Below, one piece after another: positions 4,680-62,294 of a stretch of 64,000 nucleotides of DNA (within the stretch, counting starts at the first letter, position 1; each line of letters starts with the position of its first letter). The notes beneath the pieces are model-generated. The model had not been told where the DNA came from. It was given only the letters and a program-made list of their open reading frames with translations, and ran no database searches. Location: the NCBI RefSeq assembly GCF_000186865.1, contig NW_008705585.1:416955-480954 (forward strand), in the 5' to 3' direction. The DNA is from Aureococcus anophagefferens. Lineage: Eukaryota > Sar > Pelagophyceae > Pelagomonadales > Pelagomonadaceae. Position numbers and translations under genes: made by a program.

Positions 4680-7600
4680 TTAGACCCCCTCGCCGGGCAC
4701 GACGCGGCCGGGGAAGTTGCGGGGCGTGGCGTTGGGCCGCTTGCGCAGGACGACCTCCTCGTCGAGCGTGTCGTCGATGATGTGGCGCGTGGACGGCGTC
4801 TCGCGGTCCGGGAAGACGAGGCCCGAGAGGACGTGGAAGAGCGCGTCCCGGAGCTTGGGGTCCAGCGAGAAGGTGCGCATGGACGCCGGCCCGTCGCCCT
4901 TGCGGAGCTTCAGGGAGATGCAGTCGGGCCGCTTCGGCGTCCGGAGCACGTCGTCGACGGCGTCCTTCGGGAGGCGGACCTGCGACCGGTCGCGCCGGAG
5001 CCAGATGAGCTCGCCGGCGTCGAGGTTCCAGTGGAGCGCCGTCGCGTGCTTCGACGCGGCCTCGACCCAGGAGTTGGAGCCGAGCTTGTGGCACGTGAGG
5101 CCCTCCTTCAGGAGGTGGCGCAGCGTCTCGGTCTGGAGCAGCATCTGCGTCAGATCCGACTCGAAGACGACGCGCTCGAACTGCGCGAGCGTGAGCACGT
5201 CGCCGTCGCCGTGGCGCGCGACGAGGTTCGCGACGAGCGACACGACGTCGACGTCGTTTCCGGCGACGAGGTGGCGCACGCGGCCGTCGACGGACTTGGC
5301 GCGGCCCTTGCGCAGGTACTCGACGAGCTCGTCGCGCGAGATCTCGTGGTCCGTGTTCCGGTCGATGCCTGTGTGCAAATCAAATCTTCAACCCGACTTC
5401 AATGTGCGCGTATTCGAATGTTTCGACACAATCTCTTCGGCTGTGCTCCGAGAACTCGATGAGAGCAATCGATCCGTCTAAAAATCAGCCGAATCGACCT
5501 CGATTTGACCGAGCTAGAGAATTTCAAAGTTTGGTCGGGACGTCCCAAACCAGCGGTTGATTCGCACACAGGTCGATGCGCGCGAAGACGTCGTTGACCA
5601 TGTACTGCTTGACGAGCGTGCGCCGGTGGAAGCCGAGGCCCAGGTGGCCCTCGCCCGAGTTGTACTCGTCGAGCTTCAGCGCGGGCCGGTGCTCGGACCT
5701 GTGTGGAAATCAACCAGTGGAACGCCCTGTCCAGCAAAAACTTCAAACCTCTCTATCTCAATCAAATCGAAGTCGTTTTGGCTGATTTTTGGACGAATCG
5801 ATCGCTCTCGTCGAGTTCTCGAAGCACAGCTGAAAGTCTGGTCCAAACCGTTCGCGAAAATTGAATTCGAGTTGAAGATTTGATTTCCACACGGGCTCGG
5901 ACGCGCGCGCGACGCGGACGCCCGCCTCGTCGTCGCCGGACTCGTCGCGCGCGCGCGCGCGCCGCCGCAGCTCCGCGTAGGCCCGGAACACGCGCGGCCC
6001 GACGTCCGGGAGCCGCAGGCACAGCTGCTTGAACCACTCCGTGAAGTAGACGAAGCTCAGCGCCAACGCCATCAGAAAAAAGGTCCGCGGCTCGAGGTGG
6101 AGCTGCGCGTAGGCGCCTAAAACGTTGACCGCGACGAAGGGCCCGGACACGAGGGGCTTGTCCCAGGCCAGCAGCTCCCGGAGCGGGTCGAGGTCGCGCA
6201 CGGCGCTCGTCAGGTCGTGCTGGTAGGGCGCGAGCGCGGCCTTGCGCCCGGCGAGGTTGATGACCTTCTTCGCGACGCCCTTGAAGACCTTCTTGGGCCC
6301 CGGCGCCGGCGCCGGCACCATGGACCGCGGCGGCGCGAGCGACGACCGCCGGACGCTCTTCGCCGGCGGCAGCGCGGCCTTGATGGCCTTTTTGTGGGAC
6401 GTCGACAGCGCGCCGAGCGACGGGTGCCACTTCGCGAGCGTCCGCGCGACGCGCTCCACCTCCGTGTCCTGGCGCGACGCGCCGTCGCCGTCGTCGTCGG
6501 ACGACTCCGCGGCCCCGTCCTCGCCCACGACCAGATCGTCGTCGCGCTTCGCGTCGACGCCCAACGCCTTGGCCAGGTCGGGGAAGCGGAAGATGAAGTC
6601 CTGGAACTCGACGAGCGTCAGGATCCCGTCGCCGTCGTCGACGGCGGCGAAGGCCCGGGCGACCTCGTCGGCGGACGGCGGCTTGACGTTCATCGACGCC
6701 GCGAACGCGGTCACGGCCGCGGAGATCTCGTCGACGTCGAGGCTGCCCGACCGGTCGACGTCGATGCGGTAGAAGATCTCCGCGCAGCGCTCCCGCAGGA
6801 GCCGCGCGCGCCGCGCGACGTAGCCGCCGCGCAGCACGCCCGCGGCCAGGCCGACGTGGACCATGGACCGCCAGTAGACGACGAAGTAGCACACCGGCGA
6901 GCACGCGGCGACCCAGACTAGCGTCGTCGGCGTGTGCTTCCACTTGACCGCATCCAAGGCCCTCTTCTGGAAGTCGACGAGCGGGTCCGCCCAGTCCTGG
7001 AGCGTCATCGCCGCCGCGTACGTCACGTTGACGTCGAACTTCGAGTCGTCGATCAGGGGGCGGTGGCTCCAGATCAAGGACCAGGCGCTCAGGGCCGGCG
7101 ACACGGCGACGGTGACGCGCATGTGGACCGCCGCCGACGGCGCCTCGAGGCCGTCGCTCACGTCGAGCTGCCACCAGCGCTGGATGCTCCCGCGGCACGC
7201 CAGATCGTCCAACGACAGGCGGCAGCGGCCGAGCGCGCCGACGACGTCGTCGCGGATCTCGACGTCGAGCACGCCGCCGCTGCGCCAGAGGTCGAACTCG
7301 AAGCGCTCGTTGAACCAGGGGCTCCGGTCGTTCGCCGCCGTCTTCGTCCGCCCGGCGAAGCGCCGCGCCTCGGGCCACGGCACGCCCTTGGGGCTCCAGC
7401 CGCGCAGCTTCAGGGACGCGTGGGCGTCGCAGAGGTTGCTCAGGGACGCGCGGCTCGGCAGGCGGCAGGCCTCGATGACGTCGCAGGTCACCCGGCCGAT
7501 GCTCGCGCCCTCGAGGCGGTTCAGCAGCGTGCCCTTGAGCACCGGCAGGAGGCGCGACGGGTAGTGGCGCGCCGGCTTGCGCTCGTAGAGCGACGACTCC

Positions 7601-7683: not shown

Positions 7684-7783
7684 TGGAACTCTGGAATGGC
7701 GCCACGAAGAAGATTTGGAAGAAGTGCAACAACCGCTTTTGTCTATTCTGCGGCAGCCCATTGGATCGTCAAGAATACTCGCG

Positions 7784-9196: not shown

Positions 9197-9226
9197 GCTC
9201 CCCTCCACACGGAGACGCGCCCGGGC

Positions 9227-14932: not shown

Positions 14933-15066
14933 ATCGAAATGGTGCCGTATCTTAGCTGCCATAACGAAGCGTTGGCTGCCCCCCGACCTGGCAGCAGCAC
15001 GCGAGCCCGCCAAGTAGGGCCCGCCGCTCCCCGGTCGGCACCTCCGCCCTTGGCCCGTTTGGCGCC

Positions 15067-18000
15067 ATGGCCGACGAGGAGGAGAAGAAGGAGGAGGACA
15101 AGGAGCTCAAGGAGCTCATCGCGCGCGACGCCTTCGGGCTGCGCACCTACCGCTGCAACGCCCCGTGGCGCGCCGGCGCCGGCGGCGACGGGGGCGGGGG
15201 CGGGGCGCTGCGGCCGCCGTTCGCGCGCGCGCGCGCGCTTCGCTCCGAAACCGAAACCCCCGCTTTTCTAGGCCCGTGGAGCCCTTCGGGGGCGAGCTCG
15301 AGGTCGAGGCGCACAAGACGCTCCGCGACATCTTCGCCCCGGGCACGTGGCGCATCGACGGCTGCCGCGAGCGCAAGTCCGTGAACCACGACAAGATCCT
15401 CGCGGACATCGAGGCGAGCGGCAAGGACTCGGCCTTCGCGGCGGCCGTCTGCCCCTTTTCCGGGGTGACGGCGCTGCACGCGTGCGCGATCAACGGCTAC
15501 CTCAGCCTGCTCAAGGTCCTGGTGGAGAAGTGCGAGATGTCACCCCTGGTCTGCGCCGGCGGCTTGAGCTCCATGATGAGCAGCCGCCTCGAGCACGTCC
15601 GCGGCGCCGACGCGATGTGGATGGCGAAGCGCCGCGGCCACAAGCACGTCATCGAGTACATGAAGACCCTACCGATCGTCAAGCAGGCCACCGTGTCCCT
15701 CGAGAAGCAGCTCGTCGTCATGGAGGCGGCCCACAAGGAGGCCGTCGCGGAGGCCAAGGAGCGCGCCGTCGAGGAGGCCGCGCGCAAGGCCGAGGAGGAG
15801 GCGCGGCTCGCGGCGGAGGAGAAGAAGCGCAAGGAGAAGGAGAAGGCCCAGCGCAAGATGCGCGACGAGATCCAGGCCTTCGACGGCGTGCTCCGCGCGA
15901 AGAAGAAGGCCCTCATGGACCCGAGCTACGCGTTCAAGCTCGCGGAGACGGGCCAGGCCAAGGCCATGGAGCTCCTCGAGGACGAGAAGCAGTCGCACAA
16001 GCAGGACACGAACCGCTGCAAGGCCATGCGGAACCGCGCCGAGGACAACGAGATCGGCGCGGAGATGAAGAAGCCCGAGCAGCTAGGAGCTGTGCCGGAA
16101 ACAACCACTGGTCTGGGTGGTCCCGACCAAACTTCAAACCTCTCGGTCAAATCGAAGTCGGTTCGGCTGATTTTTGGACGAATCGAGTGCTCTCGTCGAG
16201 TTCTCGGACAGAGCCGAAAATGTTGCGTCGAAACTGTCGCGTACGCGCCCACTGAAGTCGGGTTGAAGATTTGGTTCCCTCGCAGGCTCATCGCGGACAT
16301 CGACGAGATGCTCAACGAGTACATCGCGCTCTGGGAGCTCGACGAGCAGCTGGAGAAATACGTCGCCGAGGCCAACGACACGCGCTGGGGCGATCTGGTG
16401 CCCGAGGAGCTGGAGGAGAACGCGAAGAAGCTCACGTCCAAGGTCAAGAAGCTCCCGAAGCCCGTGAAGACGTCCGAGGCGTTCAAGGTCCTCGACCGCC
16501 GCGCGAAGGAGTTCTACACGTCGTGTCCGCTCATCCTGTCGCTGCACACGCCCTGCATGAAGAAGCGCCACTGGGACGAGCTGCTGGAGGGCGCGCACGC
16601 GACGCTCTCGGAGACGCCCATCGAGAACCCGAACATCGAGCTCTCGGAGATTCTGAGCCTGGAGCTGCACCGCGCGTCCGTCGCCGCCGTCGTCGAGGAG
16701 GTCACGGACAAGGCCGTGAAGGAAGCGAAGCAGGAGGAGACGCTGGAGACCCTCGAGGTCAACTGGAGCGGCATCGTCTTCGTGCGCACGCCCTACGACA
16801 AGGACGAGTCCGTGCCGCTGCTCAAGATGGACGAGAAGGACTTCGAGCAGCTCGAGTCGGATTTACTGACGCTCCAGTCCATGGTCTCCTCCCGCTACGA
16901 GTTCTTCAAGGAGCGCAGCACGAAGTGGCAGGCGGAATTGCAAAACGTCGGCGAGGTCATCGCGATCCTCGCGGAGCTCCAGCGCATGTGGTCCTACCTC
17001 GAGCCCCTCTTCGTCGGCTCCGACGAGGTGAAGCGCGAGCTGCCGGAGACGGCGGCCAAGTTCGCGGAGATCGACGCGACGGTGCGGTCCCTCCTGAAGG
17101 AGGCGTGGGAGACGAAGAACGTCAAGGCCGCGTGCAACAAGGAGGGCCTCATCCCGACCCTGGAGGACATCACGGTGAAGCAGGACATGTGCAAGAAGTC
17201 GCTCAACGAGTTCTTGGATTCGAAGCGCATGCAGTTCGCGCGCTTCTACTTCGTGTCCGAGGCGGACTTGCTCGATATTCTTTCCAACGGGTCGAACCCG
17301 TCCGCGATCATGAAGCACGTCGACAAGGTCATGCTCGCGACCAAAACTTTAACGCTCACGGACGACGACGCGGAGACGGGAAGACCGACGGCCCTCACGT
17401 GGATCTCGGGCGTCGGCTCGGAGTGGTGCGAGTTCACGCCGCCGCCGAAGCTCCTCAACAAGGTCGAGGTCTACCTCCAGACCGTGTTGGACGCCCAGAT
17501 GACCACGCTCGTCGAGCAGGCCAAGCGGTCCATCGGCCGCTACGCGTCGACGGCCGTGCGCACGGACTGGCTCCAGGAGAAGGCGACGGCGAGCGACGGG
17601 GCAGCACAAGAGAGCGACATTCCCAACTTCAAAGGCTCATATCTCGGCCATTTTCCACTCGTTTCGGCTGATTTTTGGACGAGCGATCATCTCTCGGAAC
17701 GGTCTCGACGCGTGGATGCTTTTCCCGGAACGCGCGCGCGCGGAACACTCACGTTGAAGCGACGTTGAACCACTCTTGTGCTGCCCAGGCGAGCGACGGC
17801 CGCACGAACGGCGCCGACGCGGGCCAGATCGGGCTGCTCATCGCCGCCATCTACTACACGAAGGAGTGCGAGGACGCCATGGAGAAGATCGCGGGCAACG
17901 GCGACGAGGCGCCCTACGTCGAGTTCCAGACGCGGACGCTCGCGCAGCTCTCGGATCTCATCCTGCTCACCAAGGGCAAGCTCGACGGCGCGATGCGGAC

Positions 18001-21000
18001 GCGCGTCATGTGCATGATCACCTACGACGCCCACAGCCGCGACATGATCGAGAAGACGCTGCGCGCGAAGTCGTACCAGATCTCGAGCTTCCAGTGGCAG
18101 TCGCAGCTCAAGATGCGCTTCGACGAGTCGCAGAACCGGTGGCTCGTCCACATCCTCAACGCGGAGTTCGACTACGGCTTCGAGTACCTCGGCAACGGGC
18201 CGCGTTTGGTCGTGACGCCCCTCACGGACCGCGTCTACGTCACCGCAACCCAGGCCCTGAACCTCTGCATGGGCTGCGCGCCCGCGGGGCCCGCGGGCAC
18301 GGGCAAGACGGAGAGCACGAAGGACCTCGCGTCGGCGCTGGGCAAGTGCTGCTACGTCTTCAACTGCTCGCCGGAGATGGACTACAAGTCGTTGGGCAAC
18401 ATCTTCAAGGGCCTGGCGTGCTCCGGGTCCTGGGGCTGCTTCGACGAGTTCAACCGGCTGATCCCCGAGGTCCTGTCCGTGTGCACGGTCCAGTTCAAGG
18501 CCGTCTGCAACGGCGTCAAGCGCGTCAAGACGGCGCGCAAGGTCGCGCGCAAGAGCGGCAGCCCCTTCGACGAGGCGGCGCGCATGACGACCATCGAGGG
18601 CGACCTCGTGAAGCTCGACGAGACGTGCGGCGCGTTCATCACGATGAACCCGGGCTACCTCGGCCGCTCGGAGCTGCCCGAGGGATTGAAGGCCCTGTTT
18701 CGGCCCATGACGGTCATGGTGCCCGACCTCGTCATGATCTGCGAGAACATGCTCATGGCCCAGGGCTTCGTGAGCGCGAAGTCGCTCGCGTCCAAGTTCT
18801 ACTCGCTCTACTCGCTGCTCAAGGATCTCCTCTCGAAGCAGGAGCACTACGACTGGGGCCTGCGGGCCATCAAGTCCGTCCTCGTCGTCGCGGGCATGCT
18901 CCTCCGCACGGACCCGGACAGCGACGAGGACAACATCCTGATGCGCGCGCTCCGCGACTTCAACATCGCCAAGATCGTCAAGGCCGACGAGGTCGTCTTC
19001 TTCGGGCTGCTCAACGATTTGTTCCCGGGCCTGGACCCGCCGCGCGTCATCGACAAGACGCTGGAGCAGTCCGTGGAGAAGGCCGTCGAGGAGAGCGGCC
19101 AGTTCGGCGACGACGTCTTCAAGCTCAAGTGCGTCCAGCTCGACGAGCTCATCGCGATCCGCCACTGCGTCTTCGTCATGGGCCCGCCGGGCTCCTTCAA
19201 GACGTCCTGCTGGAAGATGCTCGCGAACGCCTACAAGATCAAGGACCCGGACAACCCCGTCAAGGTCGTGGACATCAACCCGAAGACGATGCCGACGCAG
19301 GACCTCTACGGCTACATCAACATGGTCACGCGCGACTGGAAGGACGGCCTCCTGTCGACGATCATGCGCGACCTGGGCCAGATCGACGACGAGAAGCCCA
19401 AGTGGATCCTGCTCGACGGCGACCTCGACGCGAACTGGATCGAGTCCATGAACTCGGTCATGGACGACAACCGCCTGCTGACGCTCGCGTCGAACGAGCG
19501 CATCCCGCTCAAGCCCCACATGCGCATGATCTTCGAGATCCGCGACCTGAAGTACGCGACGCCGGCGACGGTGTCGCGCGCGGGCATCCTCTACATCTCC
19601 ACGGACGAGGGCTTCCAGTGGCGGTCCATGATCAACACGTGGGTGTCGACGCGCTCCGGCGACGGCTTCACGGACGAGTCGCGGCAGTGGCTCACGGAGT
19701 GCTTCGACGAGTACGTGGGCCCGTCCCTGAAGTGCTTCCGGAAGATGCTCACGTCCATCCCCCAGTTCGAGACGACGCTCGTGGAGAATTTACTGCGACT
19801 GCTCGACGCCACTTTGACGGCGAACGAGCTCCAGTCGCAGCGCAACGTCGCCATCACGTTCAGCTTCTGCGCGGTCTGGGCTTTAGGATCCTCGCTGGGC
19901 ATCGCCGACGACGGCAAGGACTACAAGCGGACCTTCAGCGAGTGGTGGAAGAAGCAGTTCCGCAACGTCCAGTTCCCGACGAAGGACACGGTCTTCGACT
20001 ACTGGCTCGACACGGAGTCCATGTCCTTCGAGTCGTGGAAGAGCAGTCCCGCGTTCTCCGAGGTGGCCTTCAACAGCCGCGAGATGAACATGTCCGACGT
20101 CACCGTACCTACCGGCGAGAGCGCGTCGGTTTCTTTCTGGCTGAAGCTCCTCGTCGACGGCCACCACTGCGCGATGCTCGCGGGGCCCTCGGGCACGGGC
20201 AAGACGCAGCTCATCAACGGCCAGCTCAAGGCGCTCAACCCGGAGCAGACGCTCTTCCAGACCATCAACATGAACTTCTACAGCTCCGGGCTCGTGCTCC
20301 AGGCGAACCTCGAGGTGTCGCTGCAGAAGAAGACGGGCAGTCTCTACGGCCCGCCGGGCGCGTGCCACATGGTCTACTTCATCGACGACCTGAACCTGCC
20401 GGAGCTCGACAAGTACAACACCCAGTCGGCCATCGCCCTCGTGCGCCAGCACCTCGACTACACGCACTGGTACGACATCACGAAGCTCGCGCTCAAGACC
20501 GTCGAGAAGTGCCAGTACGTCGCGGCGATGAACCCGACGGCGGGCTCCTTCCACGTGAACCCGCGCCTCCAGCGCCACTTCACGACCTTCGCCGTGTCCA
20601 TGCCCAGCGACCAGTCCCTGGGCATCATCTACGAGACGTTCCTCAGCGGCCACATCAACAACGTCTTCACCAACACCGCGGCCGAGATGATGAACATGCT
20701 GCCCAAGATCATCAAGACGACGCTCCTCGTCCACAAGGACGTCTCCGAGAACTTCCGCAAGACGGCGACGAACTTCCACTACGAGTTCAACATCCGCCAC
20801 GTCGCGGGCGTCTTCCAGGGGCTCCTCATGACGTCGCCGGCCAAGTTCGGCAACACGTCCATCGTCGCCGACTGCTGGCTCCACGAGTGCTACCGCGTCT
20901 ACGGCGACCGCCTCGTGTCGCCGGAGGACCTGGCGAAGTTCGACGGCATCATGGCCGCGCAGGCGAAGAAGGGCTTCGGCGAGTTCAACCTGAGCCGCTT

Positions 21001-24000
21001 CTACGGCGAGACGCGCGACCCGTTGACCTTCTGCCACTTCATCGAGGGCATCGGCGAGGACCCCATCTACGACCAGATCCACGAACTGGCCGTCCTGCAG
21101 AAGATCCTGGACCAGGCGCTCGAGGAGTACAACGAGTCGAACGCGCAGATGGACCTCGTCTTATTCGAGGACGCGCTGAACCACATCTGCCGCATCACGC
21201 GCATCATCAACAACCCCCAGGGCCACGCCCTGCTCGTCGGCGTCGGCGGCTCGGGCAAGAAGTCGCTGTCGCGCCTCTCGTCCTTCATCTGCGGCTTCCA
21301 GACGACGATGATCCAGATCTCCGCGACGTACGGCATCAACGACCTCAAGGTCGACCTTCAGGCCATGTACAACCGCGCGGGCGTCAAGTCCGAGGGCGTC
21401 ATGTTCCTCTTCACCGACGCGGAGATCACGAACGAGCGGTTCCTCGTCTACCTCAACGACCTGCTCGGCTCCGCGGACATCGCGGATTTGTACGCGCAGG
21501 ACGAGAAGGACACGGTCATCAACTCGTGCATGAAGAAGGCCAAGGCCGCGGGCTTCGCCCCGGAGGCCGGGCCCGTCTACGAGTACTTTTTGCAGGAGGT
21601 GCGCAAGAACCTGCACGTCGTGCTCTGCTTCTCGCCCGTCGGCGAGGCGTTCCGCATGCGGTGCCGCAAGTTCCCGGCCCTCGTCAACTGCACGGTCATC
21701 GACTGGTTCCAGCCCTGGCCGAAGCAGGCGCTCTACTCCGTGGGCTGCAAGTTCCTCGCGCAGATCGAGGACCTCGGCGGCGAGGAGGTGCGGCAGCAGA
21801 TCGAGAACTTCATGCCCTACTCCTTCGACTCGACGAACAAGGCCGCCGTCGAGTACTTCGACATGGACGGCCGCTACGTCTACACGACGCCCAAGTCCTA
21901 CCTCGAGCTGCTCAAATTGTACGCGACGGTCCTCGACACGAAGCGCGCGGAGAACGACCAGGCGACGAAGCGCCTCAAGAACGGCGTCCAGAAGCTCGAG
22001 GACTGCACCAAGGTCGTCGACGTGCTCAAGGAGGAGATCGCGGGCAAGGTCGCCGACGCCGAGGAGAAGAAGGCCACGGCCGACGGCATCGCGAAGCGCG
22101 TCAAGGCCGAGAAGGAGGTCGTCGAGATGGAGTCCGAGAACGCGTCCATCGAGGAGAAGAAGGTGACCAAAATCGCCGCCGAGGTCACGGCGAAGCAGCA
22201 GTCCGCCGAGGCCGACCTGGCCAAGGCCGTGCCCGCCGTCGAGGCGGCCATGGCCGCGCTCGACACGCTCGACGTGAAGCAGCTCCAGATGTGCAAGACC
22301 ATGGCCAAGCCGCCGCCGGGCGTCGACGACGTCTTCAGCGCCTGCCTCGTGCTCCTCGCGGGCCTCAACCCCGCCGTGACGGTCCAGAAATCGGGCAAGG
22401 TCAAGGACAAGGACCGGTCGTGGGACGTCGCGAAGAAGGCGCTCCTCGGCGACCCGAAGAAGTTCGTCGACGAGCTCAAGTCCTACAAGGAGTCCTTCGA
22501 CGGGGGCAAGGTGCCCCTCATCAACTTCAAGGAGGTGCGCTTCTACCTCGCCATGGAGCACTTCCAGCCCGACATCATCATGGGCAAGAACTCCGCGGCC
22601 GCGGGCCTGTGCAACTGGTGCATCAACATCGTCGTCTACTACGACGTCGTGTCCATGGTCGAGCCCAAGAAGAAGCTCGTCGCCGAGGCGACGATCCAGC
22701 TCCAGGAGGCGAACCACAAGCTCGAGCAGGTGCGCAAGAAGGTCGCGGAGCTCGAGGAGCGTTTGGCGATCCTCGTGTCGGAGCTGCAGGAGGCGGAGAA
22801 GGTCAAGAACGAGGCCGAGGAGGTCGTCGCCAAGGGCCAGATGAAGTTGGGTCTAGCCGAGCGCCTCCTGGGCGCCCTGTCGTCGGAGAACGTGCGCTGG
22901 TGCGCGGGCATCGAGTCGCTCGGCACGTCGCGCGCGTTGCTCGTCGGCGACACGCTGCTCAGCGCCGCGTTCATCTCCTACATCGGCCCCTTCACGAAGC
23001 AGTACCGCACGAAGCTGCTCGAGGAGCAGTGGGTGCCGCGGCTCCGGTCCCCGACGACGGGCGTGCCCGTGCCCATGTCCAAGGAGGCGGACCCGCTCAC
23101 GGCGCTGACCAGGGCATCAAAAGAGAGCGAAATTCCCAACTTCAAAGGCTCCGATCTCGGCCGTTTTCCACTCGTTTCGGCTGATTTTTGGACCGAGCGA
23201 TCGCTCTCGGAACGGTCTCGAAGCGTGGATGCTTTTTCCGGAACGCGCGCGCGCGGAACACTCACGTTGAAGCGACGTTGAATCTCTCTTTTGCTGCCCA
23301 GGCGCTGACGACGGACAGCGAGATCGCGCTCTGGCAGACGATGAAGCTCCCCGCGGACCCCGTGTCCACGGAGAACGGCGCCATCGTGTCGCGGTCCACG
23401 CGCTGGCCCCTCCTCATCGACCCCCAGCTCCAGGGCGTCGCCTGGGTGAAGACCAGGGCAGCACAAGAGAGCGACATTCCCAACTTCCAAGGCTCCTATC
23501 TCGGCCGTTTTCCACTCGTTTCGGCTGATTTTTGGACGAGCGATCATCTCTCGGAACGGTCTCGAAGCGTGGATGTTTTTTTCGGAACGCGCGCGCGCGG
23601 GACACTCACGTTGAAGCGACGTTGAATCACCCTTGTGCTGCCCCCCAGGTGAAGACGCAGAACACGCGCGACAAGAACGCGATGCTCCGCGTGTCGCGCC
23701 TCGGCACGAAGGACCTGCTCAAGACGCTCAAGGAGTGTTTGGTCGGGGGCTTCCCCATGCTCGTCGAGAACATGGGCGAGCAGATCGAGGCGTCCATCAT
23801 GCCCGCGGTGCAGCGCGCGAAGATGCGCCGCGGCGGCCGCTACTTCCTGAAATTAGGGGAAGACGAGGTCGAGTACCACGCGAACTTCCGCATGTTCCTC
23901 CACACGAAGCTGAGCAACCCCCACTACCCGCCGGAGATCCAGGCCGAGTGCACGCTCGTCAACTTCACGGTGACGCCCGCGGGTCTCGAGGACCAGCTTT

Positions 24001-27000
24001 TGGCGCTCGTCGTGTCGAAGGAGCGGCCGGACCTCGCGTCCCAGAAGGTCCAGCTCATCCAGCAGCAGAACCAGTTCAAGATCAAGATGATCCAGATCGA
24101 GGACGAGATTTTGGCGCGCCTCGCCGCCGCCGAGGGCGACATCACGGACGACAAGGACTTGATCGAGGGCTTGGAGGCCGCGAAGCGGACCGCGCGCGAC
24201 ATCGAGGCCAAGCTCACGGCGGGCCGCAAGACGACGGAGTCCATCAACAACACGTCGGAAAAGTTCCGCCTCGTCGCGCGCCGCGGCTCCCAGCTCTTCT
24301 TCATCATGAACGACCTCGTGAAGATCCACACGTACTACATCTACTCGCTCAACGCGTTCGTCGTCGTCTTCTTGAACGGCATCGACCAGGTCCAGCGCGA
24401 GTCCAAGGAGGCCGAAGAAGAGGCGAAGCCCAAGAAGAAGAAGGGCTTCGGCCTCAAGGCCTTCAAGAAGATCGCGAAGAAGGTCATCGGCGGCCTCGAG
24501 CGGTTCCCGTGGAACCGCGACATCCTGATGAACGCGTCCCACAGCGACACGCTCGACAGCGACTTCCTGGACAAGCTCATGTCCATCGGCAAGAAGAAGT
24601 CGCCCCGGGGCGGCGAGGGCTCCGAGGGCACCTTCAAGGTCGGCGACGTCGTCGAGGGCGACCTGTGCGTGGGCACGGTCAGGAAGCTCTGCAAGGTCGG
24701 CGACGTCGCCGCGCTCGTGCTGGAGACCAAGGCCGACCCGCCGCGCTACTACGTCGTGCCCGAGACGACGGTGGAGAAGTACGTCGACTACGCCGCGCGC
24801 TGCGTCAAGCTCATCGACACGTGCACGTCCGTCTGCTTCAACTACGTGCGCCGGGGCCTCTTCGAGCGCGACAAGCTGACCATCGTGTCCCTCTTCGTGC
24901 TGACGCTCCAGATCGCCGACGACAAGCTCGACGGGGCCTACCTGGGCATCATGCTCGGCGGCCGCGAGGCCGAGGGCGAGCCCGCGCCCGTCGAGGCGTC
25001 CGCGTGGCTGCCCGAGGCCACGTGGCCCAAGCTCCGGGCGCTCCAGGAGGACTGCGGCGACAAGGTGCCCATGTTCGGCGGGCTGCTGAAGCACATCGAG
25101 GAGAACGCGTCGGCCTGGGAGTCCTGGTACAACCACAAGTCGCCGGAGACGGAGACGCCGCCGCTGCCCGAGGGCTGCCCCGCGCCGAACCTGTTCGAGA
25201 TGGTGCTCCTGCTGTGCACCATGCGCAGCGACCGCGTCACCATGGGCGTGACGAACTACATCGCGTCGAACTACGGCGACGGCTACGTGCACCAGCCGCC
25301 CTTCGACATGAAGAAGGCCTACCAGGAGTCCACCGCGTCCACGCCCATCTTCTTCGTGCTCTTCCCCGGCGTCGACCCGACGCTCTGGGTCGAGAGTTTG
25401 GGCGAGTCCTTCGGCATCACGGCGGCGAACCACAAGTTCGTCAACATCTCCATGGGCCAGGGCCAGGAGGCGCCCGCGGAGGCCATGCTCGAGAAGATGG
25501 CCCACGACGGCGGCTGGGTCATGCTCCAGAACCTGCACCTCATGCAGTCCTGGCTGCCCGTGCTCGAGCGCAAGCTCGAGGTCTGCTCCGAGCACGCGCA
25601 CCAGGACTTCCGGTGCTACGTGTCCGCGGAGGCGCCGTCGTTCAGCTACCAGCGGAACATCCCCGAGTCGCTGCTCCAGTCGTGCATCAAGGTGTCCAAC
25701 GAGGCGCCGAGCGACATCAAGTCGAACATCGAGCGCGCCTGGGCGCCCTTCCCCCAGGCGCGCCTCGACGAGTGCACGCTGCCGCTCGAGTTCCGGAGCT
25801 GCCTCTTCGGCCTCTGCTTCTTCCACTCCGTCATGCTCGGCCGGAAGCGCTTCGGCCAGCAGGGCTGGAGCCGCAAGTACGGCTTCAACATGGGCGACCT
25901 GACGATCTGCGCGGACGTGCTCCAGACGTACCTCGACGACAACGGCCGCGTGCCCTGGGACGACCTCCGCTACATCTTCGGCGAGATCATGTACGGCGGC
26001 CACATCACGGACTTCTGGGACCGGCGCACGAACAACACGTACCTCGAGGTGTCCTTCACGCCGAGCCTCCTCGCCGCCGAGGAGCTCGGCGAGGGCTTCA
26101 ACTCGCCCGACCCGGCGACGCACACGACGCGCGAGATGTACGTGGAGCACCTCAAGACGAAGCTGCCGCCGGAGAGCCCGTTGATTTATGGGTTGCACAT
26201 GAACTCGGAGATCGCCTACCTGAACTCGGCGACGACGGCGCTGCTGAGCACGATCCTGCGGCTCAAGGCGGGCTCGAAGGCCGGCGGCGGCGGCGGCGGC
26301 GGCAGCGGCATCGACGAGATGATCACGGACCTCATCGAGCGCCTGCCGGAGCCCTACGACCTCATCGACATCAACGAGAAGGCGGCGCCCCTGCTCAAGG
26401 GCAAGGAGGCGCCCTACATCGTCGTCGTGCTCCAGGAGGTGGGCCGCATGAACGGTCTGTGCGCGGAGATGGGGCGGACGCTCGAGGAGCTGCGCAAGGG
26501 CCTGCTGGGCCAGCTCAACATGTCGGAGCTCATGGAGGAGCTCATGTCGGCGCTGCTCATCAAGCAGGTGCCGGGCCGGAACCCGTTCCACACCGCGTCC
26601 TGGGAGAAGTACGCGTGGCCGTCGATGAAGGGCCTGCTGCCCTGGTTCGCGGACCTGATCCAGCGCTGCGAGCAGCTCACGGCCTGGAGCGGGGCCGAGG
26701 GCATCAAGACGCCCACGTCCGTCTGGCTGCCGGGCCTCTTCAACCCCACGGCCTTCCTCACGGCCATCAAGCAGGTGACCGCGCGGAACAACTCGCTCGC
26801 GCTCGACAAGATGTCGACGGAGACGCACGTGTCCGCGTTCAACGAGCCCGACGAGATCACGGAAAGACTCACGGAGGGCGCCTACATCCACGGCATGTTC
26901 TGCGAGGGCGCGTGCTGGGGCGAGGTCGAGAACGAGGCCTTCGACGACACCGTCGACTCGACGCAGCTCGCGGGCATCCTGCGCGACTCGCGGCCCAAGG

Positions 27001-27289
27001 AGCTGCTGCCCCACATGCCCATCATCTACATCAAGGCCGTCCAGGTCCAGCCGACCTGGGAGCCCTCGGCCGTGGGCTACCTGCGACCGGAGCCGACGAT
27101 CTACAACTGCCCCGTGTACCTGACGACGCGCGCCGCCGCGTCCGACGCGCCTTTCCGTCGACGGAACAAAACTCTGCGTCTCTTAGGTTCCGCGGCCCGA
27201 CATTCGTGTTCGTGGCGACGCTCAAGACGGACCTGCCCGCCTCGAAGTGGGTACTCCGCGGCGTCGCGCTCGTCGCCCAGCTCGATTAA
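15067..27289 (+). CDS. Axonemal-type dynein heavy chain with ankyrin-like N-terminus (seven exons, four introners)
   Basis: Inferred exons: 15067-15164, 15272-16081, 16286-17588, 17789-23101, 23302-23445, 23649-27127 and 27187-27289, total 3749 residues. The N-terminus has an ankyrin-like stretch (GVTALHACAINGYLSLLKVL) and a charged coiled coil before the linker. P-loops are visible for AAA1 (GPAGTGKT, 18287-18310), AAA2 (GPPGSFKT, 19181-19204), AAA3 (GPSGTGKT, 20183-20206) and AAA4 (GVGGSGKK, about 21239). The coiled-coil stalk with microtubule-binding tip spans about 21950-22850, followed by AAA5-6 and the conserved C-terminus GPTFVFVATL...SKWVLRGVAL. It is a minus-end motor of cilia by family. 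Typical heavy chains exceed 4000 residues, so the tail is short. The exon 1 donor (15165) and last donor (27128 GC or 27140 GT) are the least certain junctions. Confidence 0.9.
16082..16285 (+). mobile_element. Introner intron, family B, sense orientation (204 bp, GC-AG), aged copy
   Basis: The left end CTGTGCCGGAAACAACC and right end GGTTCCCTCGCAG are recognisable but degraded inverted repeats. The octamers GCTAGGAG (intronic copy) and GCTCATCG (exonic copy) share only the first three bases, yet taking the intron from that GC restores ...E-Q-L-I-A-D in the dynein frame. The core CGGCTGATTTTTGGACGAATCGA is present. Confidence 0.85.
17589..17788 (+). mobile_element. Introner intron, family A (200 bp, GC-AG)
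   Basis: The 8-bp duplication GCGAGCGA occurs at 17589-17596 and 17789-17796. Element ends are CGGGGCAGCACAAG and CTTGTGCTGCCCAG. The intron, taken as first duplication plus element, lies in phase 0 between ACG and GCG and keeps the dynein frame. No GT is available at the donor, so splicing must use GC. Confidence 0.93.
23102..23301 (+). mobile_element. Introner intron, family A (200 bp, GC-AG)
   Basis: The duplication GCGCTGAC is at 23102-23109 and 23302-23309. Ends are CAGGGCATCAAAAGAG and CTCTTTTGCTGCCCAG; matching changes in both arms (AAAAG/CTTTT) keep them complementary. Phase 0, sense orientation. Confidence 0.93.
23446..23648 (+). mobile_element. Introner intron, family A (203 bp, GT-AG)
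   Basis: The duplication GTGAAGAC is at 23446-23453 and 23649-23656. Ends are CAGGGCAGCACAAGAG and TTGTGCTGCCCCCCAG; the right end has a short run of extra C. Phase 0. It lies 144 bp downstream of the previous introner. Confidence 0.93.
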
Positions 27290-27382
27290 CGAGCTCCAGC
27301 GTGCTCCGACGGCGCTCCCCGCCCCCACGGCCCGCGCACTCGCGGCCCTAGGAGTAACTCGCGTACCAGCTATTACCGATCC

Positions 27383-27979
27383 TCACGCCTTCGCGCCCGC
27401 GCGGCACGCGGCGATCTGCTGCTTCGTCTTCAGGTTCGGGTTGCTGCAGGGCACCATGGTCCAGACGTTGCCGTCGGGGAAGGTCAGCGTCGCGCCGAAG
27501 CCCTCGTAGGCGGCGAGCGCGACGGCCTCGCTCGGCCCGCCCTTGGGCGTGAAGTCGACGATGAGCTGCTCCGCGTCGACGCCGTTGTAGCCGCTGCAGG
27601 CCACCGTGGCCTTGACGACCCAGGGCTTGCCGTCCTCGTCGGCGCCGTAGATGCTCGCGAAGCGCGTGCCGCCGATCTGCGCGACGCGGCGCGTGCAGCC
27701 CGGGTGCTTGGGGTCCGTGTACGTGCCCACCAGGCGCGATCCGCACGCGCGGAGCGACGGGTCCAGCGGCGGCGCCTTGAGCGACTCCTGCAGCTTCGCC
27801 GCCTTCGCCTCGTCGGCCGCGCGGCGGCTCTCGGCGGTCTCGAAGAACGGCAGGGCGCCGGCCGCCGGCGCCAGCGCCGTCGCCGCGGCGCCGGGCGCCA
27901 GCGATGCGAGGGCGCGGCGCGGCACGCGCAGGGCGCGGGCCGTCGTCGCGACGGCGAGCAACAGCAGCAGCAAACGCAT
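27383..27979 (-). CDS. Signal-peptide protein, possibly thylakoid-lumen targeted, unknown function
   Basis: A 198-residue precursor starting at 27979. It has a strong signal peptide (MRLLLLLLAVATTARA), an Arg-containing segment, then a second hydrophobic Ala-rich stretch ending AAGA before LPFFETA. Two consecutive cleavage-type signals suggest plastid and then thylakoid-lumen targeting, although no Phe follows the first site. The mature domain contains GTYTDPKHPGCTRRV, a conserved-looking Asp-Pro-x-His-Pro-Gly-Cys motif, and a beta-rich region with KATVACSGYNG and FPDGNVWTMV; I have seen this pattern only as an uncharacterised algal domain and assign no function. The frame is open further upstream to 28165, but that stretch is low-complexity and unlikely to be translated. 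It is convergent with the dynein gene. Confidence 0.7.
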   Translation of the reverse strand: MRLLLLLLAVATTARALRVPRRALASLAPGAAATALAPAAGALPFFETAESRRAADEAKAAKLQESLKAPPLDPSLRACGSRLVGTYTDPKHPGCTRRVAQIGGTRFASIYGADEDGKPWVVKATVACSGYNGVDAEQLIVDFTPKGGPSEAVALAAYEGFGATLTFPDGNVWTMVPCSNPNLKTKQQIAACRAGAKA

Positions 27980-41928: not shown

Positions 41929-44900
41929 CTAGGCGATGGCGCAGGAGCCGTTGGACCGGTCCAGCTCGGCCTTCTGGTGCTCGTCGTCGGCCTTCCGCGG
42001 CGGGTTGATGACGAGGCCCGGCGACTCCGGCTCCGGCGGATCGTTGGAGTCGTCGTAGGGCAGCACGGGCATGGAGTGCTTTTTCGTCAACGCCTTGCCG
42101 ATGCGCCGCGGGCTCGGCATCGCGACCAGGCTCCCCCAGGACCGGCTCCGGCGCCGCGGCGTCGCGGACGGCGGCGTCGCCGCGCCGCGCTCCCGGAGGA
42201 GCTTGACGACGGCCGCGTGGTGCCCCTGCTCCGCGTCGCGCAGCGGCGTGCCGTGCCAGCGGTCGACGGCGTCCACGTTCGCGCCGCGGTCGACGAGGAA
42301 GCGGACCGCGTCGACGTGGCCCTCGGCCGCGGCGAGGTGCAGCGCGGTCCGCTTGTCGTAGTCGCCGGCCGTGACGTCCGCGCCGCCGTCGATGAGCTCG
42401 CGGAGCGTCGCCGTGTCGCCGTGGCGCGCGGCCTCGCAGAGCGCGCCGACGGCGTCGGCCGCGGACGACGCGCGCGGCCGCCGGCCCGTCTCCGCGGCGC
42501 CGTGCTTCCGGAGCAGGGCCACGACGGACAGGTGGTTCCCGTCCTCGGCGTCGCGCAGGGGCGTGCCCCGCCAGCGGTCGACGACGTCGATGGCCGCTTT
42601 CTCGTCGATGAGGAACCGCACGGCGTCGGCGTGGCCCTCGGCCGCGGCGAGGTGCAGGGCCGTGCGCTTGTCGTAGTCGCCGCCGTTGACGTCGACGCCC
42701 GACGCGAGGAGCGCGCGGATGCCGCCGACGTCGCCGCGCTTCGCCGCCTCGAGGAGCCTGCCGATGCCGACGGTCGCGTCCTCGAAGTCCTTCGACCGGC
42801 GCCCGCGCGCCGCGCCCCGCTCCACGAGGAACGCGACGACGGACGCGTGGCGGCCGTCCTCGGCGTCCCGCAGGGGCGTGCCGCGCCAGCGGTCGACGGC
42901 GTTGACGTCCGCGCCGCGGTCCACTAAGAACCGCACCGCGTCGAGCTCGCCCTCGGCCGCCGCCAAATGCAGCGCCGTCCGCCGGTCGTAGTCCGCGCCG
43001 TTGACGTCGACGGCCGCGTCGAGCAGGCGCCGCAGCGCGTCCCGGTCGCCGCGCTTCGCCGCCTCGAGGAGCTTGCCGACGTTCGCGACGTCCGCGTCCT
43101 CGGGGACCTCGTCGGCGGCGCCCGCGGCCCGCAGCCGCGCGGCGATGTCCGCGTGGCCCGCGGCGAGCGCCGCCTTCAGGGGCGTGCCGCCGAAGCGGTC
43201 CCGCGCGTTCGCGCGCGCGCCGAAGTGGAGCAGCTTGCCGACGACGTCGCCGTGCCCCGCGGCCGCCGCGACGTGCACCGGCGTCCGGCCCTCGGCGTCC
43301 GCGGCCTCGGGCGGCGCGCCCCGCGCGAGCAGCAGGCCCACCGCGTCCTTGAAGCCGCCCGCCGCCGCCGCGTGGAGCGCGCCGCGGCCCCGCGCGTCCG
43401 CGGCGCCGGGCGCCGCGCCCGCGTCGAGCAGCGCGACGAGCGCGCGGACGTCGCCGGCCTCGGCCGCGACCCGGAGCTGGCGCCCCGTGTCGTCGGGCAC
43501 GTCGTCGTCCCGCGCGCCCTCGGCGCGGAGCAGCGCGCAGACCGCGTCGTGGCCCTCGCGCGCGGCGTCGCCGAGGGGCGTGCCGCCCCAGCGGTCGCGC
43601 GCCGCGACGTCCGCGCCCTCCGAGAGCAGGAACCTGCGTGGAAATCAAACACCGGTTTCGGACGTCCCGACCAAACGTTGAAATTCTCTCGCTCGGCCAA
43701 ATCGGAGTCGATTCGGCTGACTTTTGGACGAATCGATCGCTCTCGTCGAGTTCTCGAAGCAGAGCGAAAGATTTTGGTCCAAATCATTCGATTGCGCGCA
43801 CATTGAAGTCGGGTTGAAGATTTGATTTCCACGCAGGCAGGAACGCGACGACCGCGCCGTGGCCGCGCGCGGCGGCGACGTGCAAGGGCGTGCGCCGGTT
43901 CTCGTCGCCCGCCGCGACGTCGACGCCGCGCGCGGCCATGGCCTTGAGCGCCTCGAGGTCGTCCGCGCGCGCGGCGTCCCGGGCCGAGTCGGGCTCTCTG
44001 AGCGCGGTCCTCGAGTCGCGGTTGAACGCGCGGAAGTCGTCGAAGAGGGGCTTCGCGACGTTCTCCGTCTGCTCCGAGAGCGCGTGGACGCGGCCCATGA
44101 CGTCCGTCGCCGGGTCCGGCAAAAACGGCGGCGTCTCCCGCTTCGCCTCCAGGGACCGCCACGGGACGTCCGCGAAGAACGCGTGGGCCTCGAGCGCCTT
44201 CACGCCCAGGCCCTCGCCGCAGCCGAGGCGGTCCTCGGGCTTCCGCTCCAACAATTTCGCGCAGCAGTCCTTCGCCGCCGCGCCGAGCTTCGCCGACGTC
44301 AGGAACGACGGCGTGCCCGTCTTGATGAGCTCCATGAGGTCCGGGAGGTTCGTCGCGAGGAACGGCGGCCGCCCCGTGAGCATCTCCACGAGCAGGCAGC
44401 CGAGCGTCCACCAGTCGACGGACCGGCCGTAGGGCATCTTCGCCACGACCTCCGGCGCCAGGTAGAGCGGCGTGCCGCAGAACGTCTCCGCCTTGGCCAC
44501 GGACGTGCGGAACGACGCGCGCAGCGCGTTTTCCTTCTTCTCCTCGAGGCCCAGCGTCTTCGCGAGGCCGAAATCCGCGAGCACGACGTAGCCGTCGAGG
44601 CCCAGCAGCACGTTCTCGGGCTTCAGGTCCCGGTAGACGATGCCCTGGCCGTGCAGGTACGAGAACGCGGAAACGAGCTGCGCCGCGTAGAATCGCGCGA
44701 GCGGCTCGCCCAGCACGCCGAGCCGCGTGATCAGCTGGTAGAGATTCCCGCCGCCCACGAAGTTCGTCACGAGATACAGCCGCGTCGCGTCCTGGAAGGC
44801 GTACTGCAGCGTCAGGATGAAGGGGTGGCGCATGGTCTGCAGGATGTGGTTCTCGTCGAGCATGTGTTGCACCGCCGCTTCTCCCGCGTGTAAAAGCCGC

Positions 44901-45307
44901 TCCTTGCGCACGGCCTTGATGGCGTGGAGGCTGCCGCCGTCCCGCTTCTTCGCGAGGACGACCTTGCCGAAGCCGCCCTCGCCGATCTGGGAGAGCACGT
45001 CGAAGTCGTCGAGGCAGGCCTCGGCGCCCGCGCGCCGCGCGCCGACCTGCTCGGACGACAGCCGGAGCTCCTCGAGGAGGTCGTCGTCCTCCGGCACCTG
45101 CTTCGTTAGGCCGCGGTGCGACGCGTCGAGGGACCCGATGGACTCGCTGCGCTGGCGCGACACCTCTTCCGTGCGCGCGCTGTGGACGCTCGTGTCAATC
45201 GGCTTCGATTTTTTTAGTGGGCTGTCGAGGGACGACGTCACCGTAACGACCTCTTCCGCGGCCGCCAGGCCCTCGAGGGTGCCGCAGGACGACGACGTCG
45301 ACTTCAT
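41929..45307 (-). CDS. AGC-type Ser/Thr kinase fused to an ankyrin-repeat array (two exons, one introner)
   Basis: Exons 45307-43845 and 43633-41929 give 1055 residues. The kinase domain has GEGGFGKV at 109-116, the ATP Lys at 131, YRDLKPEN with catalytic Asp227, DFG at 245-247 and a CGTPLYLAPE activation segment, so it should be active; the sequence is closest to the AGC group (PKA/PKG/S6K style), with an AGC-like C-tail (PPFLPDPATDV). From about residue 440 there are roughly fifteen ankyrin repeats, several nearly identical in pattern (DYDKRTALHLAAAEG, DRWRGTPLRDAEDG). One repeat is completed across the introner at 43634-43844. The C-terminus is low-complexity. Cytosolic signalling with ankyrin-mediated substrate binding is the inferred role. 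Confidence 0.88.
43634..43844 (-). mobile_element. Introner intron, family B, antisense orientation (211 bp, GT-AG)
   Basis: Perfect 8-bp duplications GCAGGAAC (plus strand) are at 43626-43633 and 43837-43844. Ends are CTGCGTGGAAATCAA and TTGATTTCCACGCAG. The core CGGCTGACTTTTGGACGAATCGA reads on plus while the gene is on minus. The donor on the gene strand is the GT of GTTCCTGC; removal joins VVAFL to LSEGAD inside an ankyrin repeat. Confidence 0.93.
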
Positions 45308-45563
45308 GCCGCCTCACCGCCGTCGGGGGGGGTGGTGGACGGCCGCCGCCATTACCAGCGCCCGGGGCTGCCAGGGCTCTTGACATAAAACGTTATAATC
45401 GGGAATGTTTGTGGCCGTCAAGGCCCCTGAAGCTGAAGTCAGTGAAGGCGTTGAAGTCGTTCCCAACGGTCGACCCAACGGCACGTCGGTCGGCACTGTC
45501 GGCGGCGAGAACGCGCGACCCTGGCCCGTACGCGTCCCGCCCCCACCGGCCGTAGCGCCGAAC

Positions 45564-59201: not shown

Positions 59202-59399
59202 CGGCGTCGGGGTGACGGTGGAATCCTTGTTCGGGGCAACAACATCACCCAAAACAGTCGGGGCAGCTTCATCATCGCCCCAGTTTGGGATGCGCTATGG
59301 TGGGGCTGCATTCCCCATGTAGCTTAGCCCCCGTGGGACTGATTGCTGAGTAACGAATGGCCAAAAGCTAGGTGCGCGTCCGGGCGCGCTATTCCGACC

Positions 59400-62294
59400 A
59401 TGGGCGCCGGCGCCAGCGCCGAGCGCCCCCCTCCTCTCAAGATGAACGAGCGCGACGTGCGCCTGCGCCTCGGCGTCGCCTACGACGAGACCTGCGCGTC
59501 CGGCCGCGTCCTTTTGCCGCCAAAACAAAAAGATTTAACGCAGCGTCGCGCGCAGGCGACGCCTACTTCAAGGCGAACGCGCGGCCGTCGACGACGGGGT
59601 CGCCGCGGATCCCGACGGCGGAGCTCGAGCACGTCGCGGAGGTGCGGGGCCTCTTCCACCGCATGTTCTTCGACAACGTCGTCGCGTTCAACAAGTGCGT
59701 CGCGGCCTTCGCCGCCGCCGACGCGCGGCTCACGGGCGCCGCCGCGGCGATCCCCTGGGCGCCCGTGGACAAGAGAGGAGTCTACGCGAACGTCGGCGAC
59801 GGGTGGCGGCAGCGCGCGTTCGACGCGAAGCCCGTCGCGAGCCTCGACGACCTCTTCGCCGTCGCGGCGCGCGCGCGCGAGCCCTTCCTGGCGACCATCG
59901 AGGCGGCCCTGGACCGGTCGAACGTCACGGGCGTGACCCTCGAGGCCGCGGAGCTCAAGCCGCGGAAACGCGCCGCGGAGAAGCTCGCGGAGGGCGGCGG
60001 GCGGGACCCGTCGGCGGTGTTCGACGTCGTGCGCTGCGCCGTCGTCTGCGACGACGAGGCGGCGCTCGTCGCCGTGCACCGCGCGTTCACGTTCGACGAG
60101 ACCGTCGAGATCGTCCGAGTGAAGAACCGGTTCACGGACGCGACGTTCACGGGCTGGCGCGACGTGCTCGTCTCCGTGAGCGTGCCCATCGTCAACGAGC
60201 ACCTGGCGTCCCAGCACCTCTGCGAGGTGCAGCTCGTCCTCGAGTCCTACACGGACGTCGAGGACGAGTGCGACGCGCTCGCGCTCCGGGACTACTTCGC
60301 GCCCTACCTGGGCCGCGGCGTCGACGCGCGGAAGCGGCGGTCGCGCGTGGCGCTGCTGACCGCGCTGCCGCTCCGCGTCGTCTCCGCGCTCTCGACGACG
60401 GAGTCGCTGGTGACGAAGCTCTGCCGCGAATTCGACGACGACGCGATCCAACTGCAGAACCTCGTGGACCTGCTCACGACGATGAGCGAGCTCTCGCACG
60501 CCGCGGCGGCGCGGCGGCGCATCGACGTGCTCGAGCACACCATGGGCGGCGGCCTCGGCGCGGAGGCGCGGTCCGTCGAGCTGCTCTTCAAGAAGGCGCT
60601 CGAGCTCAAGGAGAAGCAGTACGGGCCGGACCACCCGGCGACGGCGGCGTCGTGCGCGGACCTGGCCGCGCTGCTCTGCGGCCAGCTCAAGTTCCGCGGC
60701 GCGGAGGACTGGAGCCGGCGGGCGCTGGACATCCGCGTCAACGCGCTGGGCAAGGAGAGCCCCGAGGTCGCGGACAGCCTCGACAACTTGGCGCTGATCC
60801 TCCGCGCGGGCGGCCGCGTCAACGAGGCGGAACCCTTGCTGAGGCGGAGCCTGGGCATCCGGGAGGCGCGCTGGCCCGACGACCACGCCGACGTCGCGAT
60901 CTCGTTGTCGAATCTGGCCGGGGCTCTGCGGGACCTGGGCCGCTGCGCGGACGCGGAGCCGCTGAGCCGGCGCGCGCTCGACGTGCGGCGCCGGCTCCTG
61001 GAGCCGGACCACCAGGACCTCGGCGTGTCCCTGGCGAACCTCGCGGGCATCCTGACCCTGCGGGGGCGCTACGCGGACGCGGAGCCGCTCTACCGCGAGG
61101 CGCTCGCGATCTACGAGCGCCGCTTTGGCGCCGACAGCGCGCACGTCGGCCGCGCGCTGCACAACCTCGCGAACCTCCTGCGGGCCGACGGCCGCTACGG
61201 CGAGGCGCGGCCCGCCGTGGACCGGGCCCTGGCGATCAAGGAGGCGGCGCTGGGGCCCGAGCACCCGGACGTGGCCGCGACGCTCGAGTGCGCCGCTGCG
61301 TGGGAAACAACCGGTGGAACGCCCCGTCCATCGAAAACTTCAAACCTCTCTAGCTCGGTCACATCGAAGTCGTTTCGGCTGATTTTCGGACGGATCGTTT
61401 TCTCTCGGAACGTTCCTTTGAGACAACGAAAAAACTAAATCGTGCGCATACATGCATATTGAAGTCGTGTTGACTATTTTTCTGCCCAGGTGCGTCGGCG
61501 CGCTCGCGCTCGCGACGGGCCGGCCGGGCGACGCGGAGCCGGCGCTGGACCGCTGCCTGCGGATCCGGACGAAGCGCTTCGGGCCCGACCACGCCGATGT
61601 CGGGTCGACGCTGCGCCACCTGTCGGCCCTGCACCGGTCGCGGAAGGACTACGACCGCGCGGAGCCCCTCGCGCGGCGGTGCCTCGAGATCGCCGAGGCG
61701 TCGCGGCCCGCGGCGCACCCGGAGGTCGCCGCCGCGCTCGACGCGCTGGCCCACGTCCTCAAGGCGACGGCCCGCAGCCAGGAGGCCGAGTGGAAGTACG
61801 AGCGCGCGCTCAAGATCCGCGAGGAGCTCTTCGGCGGCGACTCGGACGGCGTCGCGAGCAGCCTGTGCCACCTCCTGGCCGTGCTCCAGCAGGAGCAGGA
61901 GCAGTACGCCGACGCCGAGGACCTCTTCCGCCGCTGCGTCGAGATCAAGGAGCTGCGCCACGGCAAGGACCACGTGTCCATCGCGCCGACGCTCAACAAC
62001 ATCGGCGCGCTGACGTCGCGCCAGGGCCACGGCGCCAAGGCCGAGTCCGCGTACAAACGCGCGCTGGCCATCTTCGAGAGGCACCACGGCGAGGACAGCG
62101 TCAAGCTCGTGCCGACGCTCTTCAACCTCTGCATGCTCTACGACGCGCGGAGCGACACGGAGGGCGCGCTGCCCTTCGTCGAACGCGCCGGCGGCCTCGC
62201 GTGTCGCTCGCTCCCGGACGGCCACCCGACGCGGCGCCGCGTGCTGCTGCTGCGCGACTCGCTCCGCCGGAAGCACGCGGGGCGGGCCTACTAA
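59400..62294 (+). CDS. RelA/SpoT-like and TPR (kinesin-light-chain type) protein (three exons, one introner)
   Basis: Inferred exons 59400-59493, 59556-61287 and 61490-62294 give 876 residues. The start MGAGASAE is a candidate N-myristoylation site. Residues about 150-310 resemble a RelA/SpoT-type nucleotidyltransferase fold: VFDVVRCAVVCDD, VKNRFTDATFTGWRDVLVSV, HLCEVQLVLES. The full catalytic set of true ppGpp synthetases is not evident, so activity is doubtful. The C-terminal half has about ten kinesin-light-chain-type TPRs (for example YGPDHPATAASCADLAALL, AEPLLRRSLGIREARW), one of them interrupted by the introner. TPRs bind partner proteins. The first intron (59494-59555) has a GC donor by my best fit, with a GC at 59506 also possible. 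Confidence 0.75.
61288..61489 (+). mobile_element. Introner intron, family B with mismatched right end (202 bp, GT-AG)
   Basis: The octamers GTGCGCCG (61288-61295) and GTGCGTCG (61490-61497) match at seven of eight. The left end CTGCGTGGGAAACAACCGGT is a normal family B terminus and the core CGGCTGATTTTCGGACGGATCG is present in sense orientation. The right end, TATTTTTCTGCCCAG, does not complement the left and resembles a family A end. Removal keeps the TPR frame (L-E-C-V-G-A). Confidence 0.88.

Follow-up and report, generated by a model that had tools for sequence, protein, structure and literature searches.

Ten elements of about 200 bp in five genes of Aureococcus anophagefferens are very probably introners, that is, MITE-like non-autonomous DNA transposons acting as spliceosomal introns. 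They lie in a 64,000-bp stretch of DNA (hereafter the window; G000:C25:416955-480954) with a GC content of 69.7%, within an assembly of 49.05 Mb and 86 contigs. A first-pass annotation of the window had proposed this reading, and it is supported by the copy number of the elements, their terminal repeats, their 8-bp target duplications, the restoration of the host reading frames upon their removal, and splice signals that point in the coding sense.

All ten segments occupy the positions that the annotation had given them (Table 1). They span 200-211 bp when one flanking octamer is counted and 192-203 bp without it, and a profile search of the window returned exactly these ten, with no eleventh copy at E<1e-5. 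The flanking octamers likewise proved to be as described, being identical in eight cases (e1, e2, and e4-e9), matching at seven of eight positions in e10, and diverged in e3, where the mismatch may reflect drift of the intronic copy. The left octamer of e3 resembles the octamer of e7, a likeness that we judged by rough reckoning to be due to chance.

Table 1. Host genes (g) and inserted elements (e), in window positions; codon counts are those of the reading frame with the elements removed.
Feature	Position	Strand	Type	Octamer (match)	Remarks
g1	4683..7830	-	C2 / EF-hand protein		911 codons without e1, e2
e1	5369..5579	-	family A	GCATCGAC, gene sense (8/8)	in g1; span includes one octamer copy, other copy 5361-5368
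e2	5699..5902	-	family A, 5′ end CCG	GTCCGAGC (8/8)	in g1; other octamer copy 5691-5698
g2	15018..27506	+	dynein heavy chain		3,894 codons without e3-e6
e3	16082..16285	+	family A	GCTAGGAG / GCTCATCG, diverged (4/8)	in g2
e4	17589..17788	+	family B	GCGAGCGA (8/8)	in g2
e5	23102..23301	+	family B	GCGCTGAC (8/8)	in g2
e6	23446..23648	+	family B	GTGAAGAC (8/8)	in g2, inside conserved dynein stretch
g3	32275..35193	+	814-aa protein from its Met		836 codons without e7, e8
e7	32738..32948	+	family A	GCCAGGAG (8/8)	in g3
e8	34502..34701	+	family B	GTCTTCGG (8/8)	in g3
g4	41932..45313	-	ankyrin-repeat protein		1,057 codons without e9
e9	43634..43844	-	family A	GTTCCTGC (8/8)	in g4; other octamer copy 43626-43633
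g5	59372..62291	+	TPR protein		906 codons without e10
e10	61288..61489	+	divergent, A-like	GTGCGCCG / GTGCGTCG (7/8)	in g5

The ten copies belong to two related families, A (n = 6; e1, e2, e3, e7, e9, and e10) and B (n = 4; e4, e5, e6, and e8), which have in common an internal core around TTTCGGCTGATTTTTGGACGA. In family A the terminal repeats follow the pattern CTGTGTGGAAATCAA, while family B ends in CAGGGCAGCACAAGAG at 5′ and CTCTTGTGCTGCCCAG at 3′, with variants. In the regions that align, the four B copies are 93-96% identical to one another, and e1, e2, e3, e7, and e9 are 77-89% identical. The remaining element, e10, is a mosaic, with a 5′ end of type A and a 3′ end resembling that of B (CTGCCCAG); it can be aligned to both families and may be an old intermediate or a recombinant. 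The inverted ends CTG...CAG that had been ascribed to all ten elements are found, in gene sense, in five of them (e1, e3, e7, e9, and e10). They do not hold for the other five, as e2 reads CCG...CAG and the four B copies have CAG or CGG at 5′ and CAG at 3′. What is constant in all ten is an octamer starting with G(C/T) and a 3′ end CAG; the predicted donor is GC at e1, e3, e4, e5, and e7. The resemblance among the ten elements is not due to chance, and the terminal 23-mer of family A has 1,191 matches in the genome at three mismatches or fewer, as opposed to 0 for a reversed control.

When each element is removed together with one octamer, the reading frame is restored in 10 of 10 cases, as the annotation had claimed, leaving a single open frame across the junctions in each of the five genes. 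GC3 in these restored frames is 0.96-0.97. Other frames are also open at the junctions in this GC-rich window, some of them on the opposite strand, so it is GC3 and homology that carry the frame argument. Intron phases are mixed, with four elements in phase 0, two in phase 1, and four in phase 2. The ankyrin-repeat gene g4 additionally contains a 315-bp tandem repeat of about 2.9 copies (window 42178-43081).

Comparisons with known proteins bear on several of the junctions. A Pfam search with eight joined pieces spanning all ten junctions gave matches above the cut-off that extend across e6 (AAA_9) and e9 (ankyrin), and matches below the cut-off that extend across e1 (EF-hand) and e10 (TPR_NPHP3 and TPR_MalT); it returned no domain across e2, e3, e4, e5, e7, or e8. 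In the dynein gene, the e3 junction lies just upstream of DHC_N2 and the e4 junction falls within a 12-residue stretch absent from PDB dyneins. The e6 junction is free of gaps in the two alignments with PDB dyneins that were inspected, the dynein stretch being continuous once e6 is removed, and a further dynein (P0007, 183 of 228 residues identical) aligns without gaps across both e5 and e6. For g3, an 814-aa protein (P0001) is identical to the joined protein at 806 of 814 positions, and the alignment crosses e7 and e8 without a gap. P0001 is encoded on a 4,716-base ENA contig and may represent either a transcript or an allele without the insertions; its Pfam accessions are presumably those of kelch and MYND. 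Two proteins carrying the name 'C2 domain-containing protein [Aureococcus anophagefferens]' (P0002 and P0003) match g1 with 62% query coverage and 81-82% identity. P0002 departs by a few residues from the predicted junctions at both e1 and e2, and P0003 disagrees with the prediction at e2 and includes part of e1; both may be automatic gene models.

Copies elsewhere in the genome were collected from a sample of 94 stretches, window included, that comprises 357,362 bases (8,939 of them N) with some overlap. Most of these stretches were chosen for a close copy within them, and the sample therefore favours young copies. From 150 hits, 126 were kept after 14 short hits, eight duplicates, and two hits at edges had been dropped. 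Flanking octamers agree at 7/8 or better in 113 of the 126 kept copies and at 8/8 in 89, with copy ends placed within 6 bases so as to favour matching octamers and repeats. Copy density was assessed in five arbitrary stretches plus L064, a stretch that adjoins a copy-bearing one; these 51,950 bases hold six copies, and the window holds ten in 63,950. Extrapolation from 6 copies over 52 kb, or from 16 over 116 kb once the window is included, gives a genome total of approximately 5,700-6,800. The elements thus have the short length and high copy number of MITEs, as well as their terminal inverted repeats and target duplications of fixed length. They also show a mark of introners, namely many near-identical predicted introns at unrelated sites with similarity running up to both predicted splice boundaries.

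The two families differ in how their ends relate to the host gene. CTG...CAG ends are present in 36 of 55 sampled A copies, and CAG...CAG ends in 46 of 58 sampled B copies. Because the ends of A are mostly CTG...CAG, an acceptor is present in whichever orientation the element lies. In the genome sample, the body of the element runs with the coding strand in 19 A copies and against it in 30, and the corresponding figures for B are 38 and 2.

Predicted splice signals are nearly invariant across the sample. Of the 58 B copies, 56 combine an octamer starting with G(C/T) with an AG end (19% for random GY sites); of the 55 A copies, 54 do so when read in one direction or both (35% for random GY sites taken in either direction). 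The three copies that lack this combination look by eye like cases in which the boundary finder misplaced the ends. The coding frame of the flanks was judged from stop codons and from GC at codon positions over 150 bases on each side. With the element and octamer removed, the flanks lie in one strand and frame in 89 of 95 copies, compared with 70-73% of random sites. Moreover, the sense of the splice signals is that of the coding strand in all 78 testable copies, meaning those with one frame and one possible sense, while only 37-47% of random in-frame GY sites point along the coding strand. Sense could be settled in 85 copies, which were picked by GY and AG, and their donors are 47 GC (55%) and 38 GT. 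A GC share of 55% is high for spliceosomal introns, a point against the introner reading. No strong preference was found in these 85 copies at the other octamer positions or at exon positions -6 to -1 (lowest p = 0.011, at -1, uncorrected for 18 columns), so that the predicted donor is a bare dinucleotide.

A mechanism consistent with this anatomy can be outlined. A cut-and-paste transposase acting in trans would move these very short elements and leave 8-bp target duplications. Where an element enters an exon such that the octamer on the coding strand starts with GT or GC, this dinucleotide would serve as the 5′ splice site, and the element's own terminal CAG would serve as the 3′ splice site. 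The spliceosome would then excise the element with one octamer, and the frame of the mRNA would be unchanged. Family B, with ends that are mostly CAGGG...CCCAG in gene sense, would work one way only. Actual splicing of the elements is in this scheme deduced from the genomic sequence. The enzyme would probably be a hAT-like transposase, given the 8-bp duplication and the CAGGG ends.

Other origins of the same elements were weighed. In RNA-based introner gain, lariats reverse-splice into transcripts and are copied back to DNA, with no transposase involved. Such a route would suit the near confinement of the sampled copies to coding sequence, the spliceable sense of every testable copy, and the lack of a clear duplication at e3. 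However, duplications of at least 7/8 flank the great majority of sampled copies, the copies have terminal inverted repeats, A bodies occur in both orientations, and non-splicing cousins, described below, share the terminal repeats; each of these features is a mark of DNA transposition. We therefore consider an RNA origin very improbable. Even less credence is due to the view that the elements are ordinary MITE insertions that stay in the mRNA and leave five genes broken. Two predicted proteins, P0004 and P0006, do continue into e2, as this view would have it, but with the elements removed the genes have uninterrupted frames of 836-3,894 codons, and the gap-free P0001 crosses both junctions of g3. 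Furthermore, a GY donor and an AG acceptor that are nearly invariant and lie in the coding sense would be unexpected in unspliced insertions.

A separate issue is whether the introners, as we take the elements to be, are aimed at genes. Insertion could be random, with selection acting solely against exon copies that fail to splice. The over-representation of GT donors relative to GC, as compared with their background share (38:47, p = 0.0006), is what selection on splicing would give. Under such blind insertion and purging, however, 60% of A copies and 75% of B copies should be non-coding, an estimate that assumes 78% of the genome to be coding and depends on a coding test that is crude and on sampled copies that are close ones. 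The flanks were not in one frame in 4 of 53 A copies and 2 of 42 B copies, i.e., six of 95 looked non-coding, and at least one of these six, e1, is coding and has e2 in its flank. Random insertion without gene targeting is thus improbable, though less so than the two origins considered above. Since the non-coding copies observed fall far below the estimate, either insertion aimed at genes or a loss of copies between genes would then have to contribute as well. In the available text of a survey of introners, genic enrichment is reported in 161 of 175 genomes, together with a bias to nucleosome linkers (PMC9860276).

The first-pass annotation had placed the mobilising transposase elsewhere in the genome and had suggested searching for the terminal repeats and for an autonomous element. 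The A repeat was found, in the 1,191 matches given above; an autonomous transposase-bearing element was not. Four terminal-repeat patterns that excluded the introner continuation, each of which would catch only a fraction of such elements, returned no autonomous relative with the same ends. Five stretches considered as an autonomous partner (L061, L062, and L236-L238) were rejected, all being ordinary introners. One pattern search yielded two places, L234 and L235, and its reversed control one; L234, which ends in 439 N, shows no partner end and was taken as chance. A further terminal-repeat search gave 19 places (control 0), of which three are ends of the two cousins described below, and the other 16 were rejected as new elements because all match the B introner profile. 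The hAT models PF05699 and PF14372 and the KDZ model PF18758 had 0 matches in the genome and also 0 in control genomes, and the MULE model PF10551 had 0 matches in the genome and was positive in 3 of 14 controls. Viral carriers were sought in IMG/VR through exact matches to the core common to A and B and to each of the two terminal repeats, which gave 1, 43, and at least 120 stretches, 80 of the 120 being listed individually. Among these 164 stretches there were only weak profile matches (E = 0.022 and 0.18, in L065), both at the seed word and in coding frame and hence attributed to chance, and viral carriers were rejected. As regards the type of enzyme, the elements have the 8-bp target duplication of hAT transposons, and a CAG(G) terminal repeat is present at the 5′ end of most B copies and at both ends of the two cousins, but not in most A copies. 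A transposase gene bounded by CAGGGCAGSAAAAGGG or CTGTGTGGAAATCAA repeats and flanked by 8-bp duplications would be that of the mobiliser.

Two longer elements bear on the origin of the B acceptor. The one in L235, on contig 32, was found via the B terminal repeat pattern with the introner continuation excluded. It is a non-introner element of 502 bp whose terminal repeat (CAGGGCAGGAAAAGGGC) is perfect over 17 bp. Its ends are CAG...CTG, its duplication matches at 8/8 (GTCGCGCG), and by eye it lies between two genes. The sole further copy found with it is L240, a second cousin of 479 bp on contig 1 (about 618576-619054) with ends CAGGGCAGCAAAAGGGC. The two have approximately 150 bp in common at each end and differ in the middle, and L240 lacks matching octamers. 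By eye, L240 seems to sit within a duplicated gene and to break up one of its copies; the last codons of this gene recur upstream, and the interrupted copy is possibly a broken paralogue. Both cousins carry the terminal repeat of B yet end in CCCTG, while the gene-sense ends of B introners are CAGGG...CCCAG whichever way the body is oriented. Reversed B copies number five of 65 in a tree (one, in L022, was assigned by hand), and four of them fall in a clade of five with support 0.845; an apparent large class of CTG...CTG-ended B copies stemmed from minus-strand loci read as plus and was rejected. A symmetrical CAGGG...CCCTG ancestor with one T-to-A change at the acceptor end accounts for both B orientations. 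The comparison with the cousins suggests that B gained its acceptor through one T-to-A substitution within such a repeat, the direction of this change being inferred.

We tentatively propose, as a conjecture that could well be wrong, that family B was a plain transposon that became an intron-maker through a single T-to-A change in the outermost trinucleotide of its CAGGG...CCCTG ends, which would persist in the two cousins of 479-502 bp. One end would have changed in the main lineage and the other end in the minor lineage of opposite orientation. Combined with insertion directed to transcribed genes, this would leave nearly all survivors as working introns with a donor defined by GY only. Neither the cousins nor a one-base acceptor is named in the titles and abstract openings of the open-licence literature searched. 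The mostly ambidextrous A, the one-way B, the cousins, the bare donors, and the scarcity of non-coding copies are handles on the identity of the mobiliser, and the same details bear on whether introner insertion is aimed at genes.

The window has other repetitive features as well. A minisatellite of 11/22-bp units (GCTATGCGGGT) is present in about 20-40 copies at 38323-38793, and a 27-bp unit that is AT-richer than the window overall is repeated four times in tandem, nearly perfectly, at 49084-49190. A run of 50 N at 9916-9965 marks an assembly gap next to sequence of very high GC content (82% at 10-12 kb).

MITEs of the hAT superfamily have 8-bp duplications and CAG(G)-type ends. The introners described here resemble them in the 8-bp duplication and in the CAGGG ends found at the 5′ end of B and at both ends of the cousins, but differ in that family A ends in CTGTG and the octamer has no strong motif apart from GY. 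Introners of A. anophagefferens and Micromonas were reportedly described by Huff et al. in Nature in 2016, and their existence in A. anophagefferens is already known. A later paper by Gozashti et al. (2022) presents introners as a leading explanation for mass intron birth and covers those of A. anophagefferens (PMC9860276), of which the window offers a clean example. As characterized there, Aureococcus and Micromonas introners have terminal repeats and target duplications, insert into exons, usually leave mRNA length unchanged, and are biased to genes, all as observed or predicted here, and nothing in that text contradicts the window copies (PMC9860276). Family 4 of an Aureococcus sp. TARA MAG, from the same genus, also has an 8-bp duplication like the window copies; however, both of its splice sites lie within the element, and the mRNA gains 12 bp (PMC9860276), while the ten window elements would take their donor from the octamer with no predicted gain in mRNA. 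In Symbiodinium microadriaticum, introners likewise have terminal repeats, their own 3′ splice site, and a 5′ splice site from the duplication, which is 4 bp long rather than the 8 bp seen here (PMC9860276). Beside what the available text of that paper reports, the present analysis adds the end sequences of both families, the bare GY donors in 85 copies, and the non-splicing cousins.
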